From a virus, in IMG/VR virus record IMGVR_UViG_3300022921_001235, positions 1-61,620 of that record: DNA of 61,620 nucleotides. One strand, given 5' to 3'. Position 1 is the first letter of the stretch. Each line of letters begins with the position of its first letter. The notes under the pieces were generated by a model, which saw only the letters and a program-made list of their open reading frames with translations, ran no database searches and was not told the DNA's origin. Positions 8,018-28,695 of this stretch are shown here, one piece after another. A program made the position numbers and the translations under genes.

Positions 8018-10066
8018 TTATTTACTCGTCGCAACAAAAATTCCATTCCAATCCGGTGGTAGGTCCTGTGTTTTCATATACTCACAGCGTTCAATCCACA
8101 TATCGTAATAGCCTTCCATTTGGCCATCAAACGATCTACGTATTATTTTACATTGTTCAATGGCTTCATCAAACAGTTGCATCTGATATAGTCCATGCAT
8201 ATCTTTGTGATGTTTTTGTGTAATTTTCCATGTATCTTTTACATTATCGAGCACTGTATAAATGCTCAATCCAACACTCTTGCCTTTTACTTGTAAGTCA
8301 TCTACTTTAAGATAGAAGAAGTCATCCTTTGTTGCTTCATAAGTTGCTTCGCCTACAAGTAATAAGCATCCGTACTCTTTACACTTGCTTTCTACTCTAG
8401 CGGCGGTGCTTACAGCGTCTCCAAGGACATCATATGAATGACGTTTAGTACTTCCCATCTCACCAAGGTATCCCAACCCTGTGTTGATGCCAGCGCCCAT
8501 ACCAACAGCAGGACGACCATCAGGTATAATAACTTCTTCATTAAACTTCTCCACTGCTTTAAGCATGTCTAAGCCACACTGTACTGCTGTCTTAGCGTGG
8601 TTAGGATCATCTATGGGTGCATTGTGTATGTGCATACTTGCATCGCCTATATACTTGATAATCATTCCGTCTGCGTCTAGCACTGGCTCTGTAATAGCAT
8701 CCATGTAGCCATTCATAATACGTGTGAGTCCTTGTACGTCATCTCCAAAACTTTCACCTAATGGTGTAAAGCCACGCAGGTCTGAGAACACAATCGACAC
8801 TTCTTTCTTAGTACCCTTCTTGATAAGGTCTGGGTTTTCCTGTAGCAGTTTAACCACTGTAGGGCTTGCGTATCCAGCAAACTGTTTCTTGATTGCGTTC
8901 TTCTGTAAGAATTCATCTACAAACTTGATTACGTATCTTTTTAATCCAACTAACAATAAAAACGCTGCTGGTATAAATCCATCAATCAACAGGTTTTGCG
9001 TAGCAAACATATAGTAACTAAAATAAACACCTCCACCCACGGACAACACAAAGAAGGCTATGCCTACGTATGTCCAACGGGCGAGGCCGATTAACAGTAA
9101 GCCGGCTATAACTAGAGCTGCTAGTTCTGCCCACTGTTCTGCGTCTGGGTGTCTTGATATATTCGATTCGTTAAACACTGTGCCTAGCATTGCTGCTTGT
9201 ACTTCGTGTGGAAACACGCTGCCTGCTGCTGTTGCTAGTGGCTGTGTAAGCCCTGCTGCTGTTGGTCCTACAAACACAATAGCGCCAGCAAAGTCATCTG
9301 GTAAGTCTACTGCGCTCACGCTTTTACTACGCTGACTCCAATCTATCCATACTTCGCCTGTTGGATTTGTTTGTATAACACCAAACTGCGGTATGCGTAG
9401 TTTGTCTACACCCATTGGGCTTAGTTTTATTTGAAACGAGGGATCGCCTGCTAGTACACGTAACACTTCCATTGTAACATTTGGATACAGTGTTCCGCTA
9501 GACTCTACTACAAGAGGTATGCGTCTTGTTACACCGTCTATTTCTGGCCAACTGTTTGTAATACCTGATCCAACCGCAGTATATTCAATGTCTGGAACAT
9601 TTGCGATAATTCCTGGAACGCTGGGTATAGTATAAAGATAGTCGCTGTTAACGATAGTAGCACCAGGATTAATTGGTTCATTTTTGTTCTCCTCAGATCC
9701 CAGCATTGTTACAATCACTGGGTATTGTTGCATTATTTCAGCAAGTGCAGCGTCTTGCCCACTCCTGTCTGTCTCCGACATCAACACATTAAACACCACA
9801 AGTCCAGCGCCTCTGGCATACAAATCCTCTATAAGGGCAGCATAATCACCTCTCGGCCACGGCCATTGTCCGTAAGCCTCTAAACTCGGTTCATCGATGT
9901 TTACTGTGTAAATGTTGTTTTCAACAGGTTGTTGATTGATTATCAGTGTGTCGAAATATCTTAGTTTTATACTTTCTAAGAAAGGCGGATTGATACTATA
10001 CACCCATGCTAGTAATCCTAGTAGTAATACACTCCATACGGGCGAAAATAAAACTTTACGCATCAT
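8018..10066 (-). CDS. CHASE2-domain class III adenylate cyclase
   Basis: 682 residues. One N-terminal membrane helix (about 5-24), an extracytoplasmic CHASE2 sensor (about 30-305), two or three helices (about 315-375), then a class III catalytic domain (about 420-610). Metal-binding Asp429 (VFSDLRGFT) and Asp474 (YIGDASM), adenine-selecting Lys471 and Asp546 (YDVLGD), and transition-state Arg557 (AARVES) are present. Ser553 replaces the usual ribose-contacting Asn. The Lys/Asp pair predicts ATP to cAMP rather than cGMP. CHASE2 cyclases are often encoded near FecR-domain genes, and a FecR gene lies 3 kb upstream here. Full length and intact. Confidence 0.92.
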   Translation of the reverse strand: MMRKVLFSPVWSVLLLGLLAWVYSINPPFLESIKLRYFDTLIINQQPVENNIYTVNIDEPSLEAYGQWPWPRGDYAALIEDLYARGAGLVVFNVLMSETDRSGQDAALAEIMQQYPVIVTMLGSEENKNEPINPGATIVNSDYLYTIPSVPGIIANVPDIEYTAVGSGITNSWPEIDGVTRRIPLVVESSGTLYPNVTMEVLRVLAGDPSFQIKLSPMGVDKLRIPQFGVIQTNPTGEVWIDWSQRSKSVSAVDLPDDFAGAIVFVGPTAAGLTQPLATAAGSVFPHEVQAAMLGTVFNESNISRHPDAEQWAELAALVIAGLLLIGLARWTYVGIAFFVLSVGGGVYFSYYMFATQNLLIDGFIPAAFLLLVGLKRYVIKFVDEFLQKNAIKKQFAGYASPTVVKLLQENPDLIKKGTKKEVSIVFSDLRGFTPLGESFGDDVQGLTRIMNGYMDAITEPVLDADGMIIKYIGDASMHIHNAPIDDPNHAKTAVQCGLDMLKAVEKFNEEVIIPDGRPAVGMGAGINTGLGYLGEMGSTKRHSYDVLGDAVSTAARVESKCKEYGCLLLVGEATYEATKDDFFYLKVDDLQVKGKSVGLSIYTVLDNVKDTWKITQKHHKDMHGLYQMQLFDEAIEQCKIIRRSFDGQMEGYYDMWIERCEYMKTQDLPPDWNGIFVATSK

Positions 10067-27129: not shown

Positions 27130-27550
27130 TTACCCAGCCAGTCTAACTATGTTAAACCTTTTTACCGTCTGTAAGTGGGGAGCATTCTGTTGCCCGGGGC
27201 TCCCCTAACCGCGAACTTGCCCTTAGGCTGCTTCTAGGACTTCAAAGTCAAAGAAAAGTTCAGGTTTGAAATTTGCGTTTGCAATTATCATTTTCGTTCG
27301 CGGTAACGGCGCTTACATCCCGGTAACTCCACTCTTCTATCCTGCCTGTCGATCCTATTTCGACCCCATCAAAAGGATTCTACTTTACCACATTTTTGGC
27401 ATTTGCGTCTAATACGGTTTGTTTTCGTATATGCGTTTACGGTTTTAAACCATTCCCAAGTGTGTTTATGCCAAAACATAATAAAATCCTTTTGGTGGAG
27501 TCGCCGGGTACCGCCCCCGGGTCCAGTTCAGTCGTCAAATCGCTTCAACA
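27130..27550 (-). ncRNA. ssrA: Circularly permuted two-piece tmRNA
   Basis: Read on the minus strand. The acceptor piece comes first: T-arm CCGGG-loop-CCCGG (27504-27524) and acceptor strand CGACTCC with ACCA, 3' end at 27493. An intervening loop (27492-27368) follows, then the coding piece starting GGGGTCG at 27367. GGGGTCG pairs with CGACTCC including the G3-U pair read by alanyl-tRNA synthetase. The tag starts at GCA 27282 and ends at TAA 27225-27223: ANANFKPELFFDFEVLEAA. The intervening sequence closes with an 11/12-bp stem. Outer ends are estimates. Rescues stalled ribosomes and tags proteins for proteolysis. The T-loop GGCGGTA is unlike tRNA TTCGA. Confidence 0.88.
27177..27205 (-). other. 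tmRNA hairpin after the tag
   Basis: GGGGAGC and GCTCCCC, 7 bp, 18 bases after the tag stop codon. It probably represents a retained helix or pseudoknot stem of the coding piece. Confidence 0.55.
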
Positions 27551-27561
27551 TTACAAGTATA

Positions 27562-27590
27562 TTTATACACTGGTATTAAGTGTTTGTCAA
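27562..27590 (-). promoter_or_regulatory. Strong sigma70 promoter of the tmRNA, overlapping TATAAATA
   Basis: TTGACA (27585-27590), exact 17-base spacer, TATAAA (27562-27567). The -10 box is also part of TATAAATA (27560-27567), the late consensus, so both host and late phage polymerase could start here. Confidence 0.78.
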
Positions 27591-27611
27591 GAGTTTTTTT
27601 TAACAACTCCA

Positions 27612-27812
27612 TCAAACCCGTTCCTTCCTGTCACAGACCTGACACTGCCGCCATTTGTCTGTTATTAATTCGGTAAATCCAAGAGTGATTATAGCAAAGA
27701 AAGTTCTTTCAACGCTATCTACCTTTTGACCTCTCACTGGACCATCCTTGAAGATGTCATGGCGTGTATCTTTCCAGCATCGCTTGCAGTATCTGATTTC
27801 AGTTTTTGCCAT
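27612..27812 (-). CDS. Zinc-ribbon protein, 66 aa
   Basis: Starts MAKTEIRYCKRC at 27812; the ATG 2 codons earlier is too close to the ribosome site. CKRC (9-12) and CQVC (58-61) form a four-Cys zinc ribbon around a hydrophobic middle (FFAIITLGFTELI). Likely nucleic-acid or protein binding. Behind an early promoter. Confidence 0.6.
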   Translation of the reverse strand: MAKTEIRYCKRCWKDTRHDIFKDGPVRGQKVDSVERTFFAIITLGFTELITDKWRQCQVCDRKERV

Positions 27813-27842
27813 TGTCATAAGCCTTTACATTTTTACAACACC

Positions 27843-27870
27843 AATATAACACATTACATATGGATGTCAA
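27843..27870 (-). promoter_or_regulatory. Sigma70-like promoter
   Basis: TTGACA (27865-27870), 16-base spacer, TATATT (27843-27848), before the zinc-ribbon gene. Confidence 0.6.
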
Positions 27871-28313: not shown

Positions 28314-28505
28314 GATCTTTTTTTGACTGCGAACAGCATCCATAAGTCTTACCAGTTGCTTGGAGGTGTCATATGGATAGTTGCTACCGTTCTTTGTTTT
28401 CCATTGTGTGCTGTTGTTGCACTGCTTTGAGAATTCTTTGTGTAGTAGTTGGTCTAAATAATCTAAATCTGTTTCGCTAAGTTGCGCTATCTTCGAGGTT
28501 ACCAT
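28293..28505 (-). CDS. Hypothetical protein, 70 aa
   Basis: Helical N-terminus (SKIAQLSETDLDYLDQLLHKEFSKQ) then a polar loop and a basic end. It overlaps the 72-aa gene by 29 bases, a large overlap, so one start may be misplaced. Not recognised. Confidence 0.5.
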   Translation of the reverse strand: MVTSKIAQLSETDLDYLDQLLHKEFSKQCNNSTQWKTKNGSNYPYDTSKQLVRLMDAVRSQKKILTMPKW

Positions 28506-28695
28506 ATCTTTGCTCCCATGCGGTTTCGAATCCGTCTTTACGATATTGCGACTCGTGGTTTCCCCATAGGCGCTTGAAATAACTGTTTTCCATTGATTTT
28601 ACTTGTTGTTCATCTCTGGCCCACTCTTGCGGGATAAGATGTCCTTTGACCATCCAGTGTAACTCGTTGGCCCATTTAAACTCTTTTGCTGTCAT
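28477..28695 (-). CDS. Hypothetical protein, 72 aa
   Basis: Trp-rich (five) helical protein with KEFKWANELHWMVKGHLIPQEWARDEQQVK. Part of the small-gene early cluster between 27.6 and 30.0 kb. Not recognised. Confidence 0.5.
   Translation of the reverse strand: MTAKEFKWANELHWMVKGHLIPQEWARDEQQVKSMENSYFKRLWGNHESQYRKDGFETAWEQRYGNLEDSAT

Follow-up and report, generated by a model that had tools for sequence, protein, structure and literature searches.

The locus analysed here raises the question whether the segment between the two halves of a permuted phage tmRNA gene holds a protein-coding gene, and whether such a tmRNA can name the host of the phage that carries it. The window, by which we mean the entire stretch of 61,620 bases analysed, is an IMG/VR virus record. 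Neighbouring genes in the window encode both class I RNR subunits and virion and tail-fibre families, and a cyclase-like protein of 682 aa (8018-10066, minus strand) shows 51% identity to a protein of phage Melnitz and 34% to one of the pelagiphage HTVC008M. By this protein the closest cultured phage is Melnitz, which infects OM43, a non-alphaproteobacterium; the Melnitz counterpart is annotated as an adenylate/guanylate cyclase catalytic domain, and HTVC008M also has one. Judged by its genes, the window is a fragment of a T4-like phage related to the Melnitz/pelagimyophage group.

Permuted tmRNA gene and its phage lineage

ARAGORN reports a single RNA gene in the window, a permuted tmRNA on the minus strand (Table 1). 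The Rfam model RF01849 (alpha_tmRNA) matches it with 130.6 bits against a curated threshold of 50 (E=2.2e-35) and RF04321 (tmRNA_permuted) with 101.9 bits against a curated threshold of 47. The covariance-model match covers the whole gene, and these E-values exclude a chance origin. The original prediction of a permuted tmRNA on a phage is thus borne out, also by the type of Infernal search that it had proposed as a check. As had been read from the letters, CGACTCC-ACCA precedes GGGGTCG, so that the acceptor/T-arm half is encoded upstream of the 5' half, and the acceptor pairing is perfect, with 7 of 7 pairs formed including G3.U; the acceptor is of the alanine type and its CCA is encoded. The resume site is present, and ARAGORN finds the expected tag frame, ending in AA. 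By these sequence features the gene is a permuted, predicted two-piece tmRNA on a phage record. Its tag is long (19 aa) and has a C-terminal EAA; LAA is the ending of 79 of 95 distinct phage tags, among which the only other EAA tag is ANSNFKPELFFDAEVLEAA, found in the sister loci L116, L468 and L469. A group I intron tmRNA was ruled out, as the Rfam scan of the window gives only the two tmRNA families, and a group I intron in the T-loop region was rejected because the insert lies instead between the CCA and the 5' half.

Table 1. Features of the tmRNA locus (window coordinates).
Feature	Position	Strand	Details	Basis
Free-standing gene	28477..28695	-	72 aa, VKGHL homologue	sequence search
Permuted tmRNA gene	27132..27594	-	ARAGORN 27585-27132; Rfam alpha_tmRNA 27594-27176	ARAGORN; Rfam
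Predicted promoter	27560..27590	-	TTGACA (27590-27585), 17-nt spacer, TATAAATA (27567-27560)	sequence; phage-wide enrichment
T-arm	27520-27504	-		sequence and Rfam match
Acceptor 3' strand	27503-27497	-	CGACTCC	sequence
ACCA	27496-27493	-		sequence
Spacer	27368..27492	-	125 nt between CCA and 5' half	sequence
5' arm of spacer stem	27482..27492	-	AAAGGATTTTA, includes SD AGGA (27490-27487)	fold; covariation
Nested ORF (putative gene)	27369..27479	-	36 codons, MFWHKHTWEWFKTVNAYTKTNRIRRKCQKCGKVESF and stop	sequence; weak PHROG match (E=0.006)
3' arm of spacer stem	27372..27382	-	TAGAATCCTTT, then UGAU (27371-27368)	fold; covariation
Acceptor 5' strand	27361..27367	-	GGGGTCG; mature 5' half begins	sequence and Rfam match
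Tag reading frame	27223..27282	-	ANANFKPELFFDFEVLEAA and stop	ARAGORN

The gene is preceded by a predicted composite promoter, both sigma70-like and T4-late-like. The element TATAAATA is found upstream of 149 of 227 viral tmRNAs compared with 1 of 107 host tmRNAs, and the full TTGACA-TATAAA form upstream of 84 of 227 and 0 of 107, respectively. A second strong sigma70-like promoter (TTGACA-16-TATATT, 11/12) is located at 27843-27870 on the minus strand; downstream of it, just upstream of the tmRNA, is a small gene that encodes two CxxC motifs (27612-27818, minus strand).

The two-piece tmRNA of Melnitz was described in 2022, when 53 two-piece tmRNAs were reported in phage genomes, and the permuted tmRNAs of the marine phages Melnitz and Mosig are already published (PMC9004378). 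The tmRNA of the window is itself a further member of this published group. Melnitz, Mosig and HTVC008M are, like the phage of the window, marine T4-like phages whose permuted tmRNA is of the alphaproteobacterial type. Melnitz also shares the TTGACA/TATAAATA promoter layout and an SD-led spacer ORF, whereas Mosig and HTVC008M have short spacers without an ORF. A glutamine riboswitch lies 3' of the Melnitz tmRNA, a position which rules out its being inside the spacer; the Rfam scan of the window gives none.

The original prediction had also taken the tmRNA as support for a SAR11 host and as a viral capture. The alphaproteobacterial model is indeed the best match, and Alphaproteobacteria (RF01849/RF04321) share with the window the gene order, the G3.U acceptor, the resume region, the tag frame and the 3' motif. 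However, the mature window tmRNA is 65-66% identical to SAR11 ssrA, which is less than the 70-72% reached by the nearest ssrA from other Alphaproteobacteria. An approximate tree built with FastTree places the window tmRNA in a group made up of phages alone, and all the sampled phage tmRNAs of the window's half, those of roseophage isolates included, lie apart from all sampled hosts; the proposed comparison with SAR11 ssrA thus separates phage from host tmRNAs, albeit coarsely. Given its short alignment, midpoint rooting and partial sampling, the tree disfavours a recent SAR11 capture but leaves the origin undated. Spacer lengths and the promoter type, too, are hardly seen in hosts. A recent capture from SAR11, by which the tmRNA would name the host, is therefore extremely improbable, and with the host of Melnitz being OM43 the host call loses its support. 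Capture as such is plausible; it is its recency that identity and tree speak against.

Terminal stem and reading frame of the spacer

The predicted length of the intervening segment, 125 bases, is correct, but its ORF content and the long stem formed by its ends had been overlooked. The two spacer ends pair by a common rule, position i with position -(4+i) from the spacer end, which extends the acceptor stem and leaves ACCA opposite UGAU. In 39 non-redundant ORF spacers, 90% of the cells are paired, compared with 41-59% when the pairing is slid, and several compensatory pair types occur per stem position across the spacers of relatives. The same pairing reaches 86% in ORF-less phage spacers and, more weakly, 70% in the alphaproteobacterial hosts. 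In the window the SD sits within this stem (fold z=-4.29), a burial that counts against translation of the ORF there. Among the 39 ORF spacers the SD lies wholly in the stem in 12, after the stem in 9 and across the stem end in 2, and is not recognised by a simple scan in 16; given this mixed placement, SD burial is no universal switch.

Read 5' to 3', the window spacer (AAAGGATTTTATTATG...TCCTTTTGA, then T and the GGGG of the 5' half) presents an SD followed by a complete ORF, from start codon to stop, of 36 codons. The SD-led frame fills 86% of the spacer; it starts 13 nt after the CCA, and its UGA stop is followed by a single U before the mature 5' half. The product carries HxH and CxxC (a zinc-knuckle motif), which together with the weak PHROG match is compatible with a putative small zinc-binding protein. 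A Pfam search with the 36 residues gives no match, and searches of phage records, by the zinc-knuckle pattern and by a WEWFK pattern return no convincing homologue. The ORF has identical copies in two other contigs, and the searches gave no diverged homologue. Codon usage is uninformative, because some small neighbour genes also score near zero.

One may argue, therefore, that the window spacer is non-coding and its 36-codon ORF a chance frame in AT-rich sequence, even though the nested genes of other phages are real. The openness of the frame (P about 0.05-0.10) is not significant alone, a diverged homologue is missing, and many phage spacers of like length hold no ORF among the matches listed. 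Against this stand the good SD spacing, the start 13 nt after the CCA and the stop at the spacer end, all as in families with measured selection, together with the zinc-knuckle motif and the PHROG match. We regard a chance frame as unlikely, and the window ORF as probably a translated gene, mainly by analogy with the nested families described below.

Nested genes and their turnover in related phages

To place the window ORF among its counterparts, viral and bacterial contigs were searched for the pattern GGGGNNGAAATAGGATCGAC, giving a length-unbiased sample in which all figures refer to the matches listed. Among the matches listed, 109 host spacers could be parsed, with a median of 29 nt and a maximum of 116, and viral spacers are far longer. 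Of the non-redundant viral spacers among the matches listed, 58 are 75 nt or longer; in 20 of these 58 an SD-led ORF fills at least 80% of the spacer, where shuffles give 0.7 expected and a maximum of 4 in 100; at a coverage of at least 70% the count is 25 of 58, as against 1.7 in shuffles. Only two host spacers among the matches listed are at least 75 nt long, and neither reaches 70% coverage; hosts thus differ from the window in their short spacers without ORFs, as well as in their separate tree group. Additional length-targeted scans enlarged the nested families. ARAGORN finds no tRNA genes inside the spacers, and ORF-less spacers compared with Rfam contain no known RNA family besides the tmRNA itself. 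At one locus (L112 3125-3431, minus strand) a phage permuted tmRNA is immediately followed by a manA RNA motif as well as a tRNA.

Long spacers without an evident gene are exemplified by RcXuper, vB_RpoS-V10, MD18, DSS3_MAL1 and Cp1R7A-A1, whose permuted tmRNAs resemble that of the window in having a long spacer, here of 93-111 nt, with a strong stem at its ends; unlike that of the window, the spacers of these roseophages and of the rhizobial phage Cp1R7A-A1 look structured and non-coding. In the stretches shown for these phages (L002-L006) the tmRNA is annotated only in DSS3_MAL1. Melnitz (MZ577097), on the other hand, has an unannotated SD-led spacer ORF, MFKWLSKTRLVVITRDYFRERNRKADAKIPKYLSG..., in its tmRNA (L487 3301-3442), which reads into the mature 5' half; its product segment inside ssrA is MFKWLSKTRLVV... 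This ORF is neither annotated nor discussed in PMC9004378.

Purifying selection acts on the nested families of relatives at the protein level. Independent pairs of family members give a pN/pS of 0.20 when read in the ORF frame, but of 1.05 and 1.58 in the two other frames. A further ORF, LDNIF..., proved to be in the wrong frame, its pN/pS of 2.5 ruling out coding there. For several nested families, homologues also occur as free-standing genes next to the tmRNA. Members of the MEIIW family sit inside the spacer in L040, L099 and L475, whereas in L055, L119, L280, L299 and Melnitz (annotated gene 85) they stand free, some 100 nt upstream of it. L010, L353, L377, L395, L406 and L412 carry a nested VKGHL gene in the tmRNA spacer, and many loci have a free-standing copy of this family, the window among them (Table 1). 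Genes of the MKNP family occur nested in many loci, and in L294 and L120 just upstream. In short-protein trees, which carry no support values, nested VKGHL copies fall in two separate places and nested MEIIW copies among free ones. Phage records contain no isolate with nested WISW, VKGHL or MKNP families.

Relatives at the same locus, found via a flanking 262-aa protein, mostly have a permuted tmRNA, and their spacers range from 30 nt without an ORF to those with ORFs of 36, 38, 60 and 64 codons. Between the window and L116, mature tmRNAs are 88% identical and spacers unrelated (125 and 86 nt).

These observations also bear on the idea that nested ORFs are regulatory leader peptides, whose translation times the folding or processing of the pre-tmRNA while the peptide itself is inert. 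Such a role would suit the placement of an SD or start in or adjoining the spacer stem, and of stops either where processing occurs or within the 5' half. However, purifying selection across the ORF body and homologues that stand free of the tmRNA point to functional proteins, and many tmRNAs of the same locus manage without an ORF, so that this explanation is very improbable. That protein-coding genes are nested in the spacers of phage permuted tmRNAs is, as a general claim, strongly supported.

An ORF in a removable spacer of a structured RNA is also reported for 23S rRNA intervening sequences with S23p, e.g. in Coxiella (PMC4990558). That system concerns another RNA, while the phage slot holds many unrelated ORFs with free homologues and clear protein-level selection. 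Such an intervening sequence is ruled out for the window, which is without rRNA and whose 36-aa ORF has no Pfam match. No earlier description of an ORF nested in a permuted tmRNA was found in searches of the open-access literature; its novelty is provisional, and the nested spacer ORF appears to be a new feature.

Two proposed uses of one precursor

We consider it likely that the phage-owned precursor of the permuted tmRNA doubles as mRNA for the spacer gene. From the composite promoter a single precursor would be transcribed, comprising the acceptor half, the spacer and the mRNA half. The spacer ends would pair and extend the acceptor stem, placing the ACCA/UGAU internal loop at the processing sites, and between the stem arms would lie a small protein gene equipped with start signals of its own, in the window that of the 36-residue putative zinc-binding protein. 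The nascent precursor is most likely translated before the 3' stem arm is made or the long stem closes. Known tmRNA biology suggests that host tRNA-processing enzymes then cut on both sides of the spacer, and the resulting two-piece tmRNA would rescue stalled ribosomes. Where the spacer contains the stop, as in the window, it could also be translated after its release; in the +13 class, however, processing would separate the released spacer from its stop codon, which belongs to the mature half. Across this phage group the spacer appears to serve as a slot whose small-gene cargo turns over while the tmRNA persists, partly by exchange with genes just upstream.

A bolder and rather doubtful extension is that translation of the spacer gene and maturation of the tmRNA are mutually exclusive, processing in the +13 class leaving a stop-less mRNA in a self-limiting loop. 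If so, ribosomes stalled in the +13 class would need the very tmRNA being made, which would control the dose of a small phage protein.

Usually the tmRNA gene is taken to specify nothing but RNA, and the spacer of permuted forms counts as waste. If the dual use of the precursor is true, it raises the question of how translation is reconciled with tRNA-type processing on one transcript. The precursor of a ribosome-rescue RNA would then also serve as mRNA in marine phages, and its spacer would harbour an additional class of small phage genes masked by annotation, as is the unannotated one of Melnitz.
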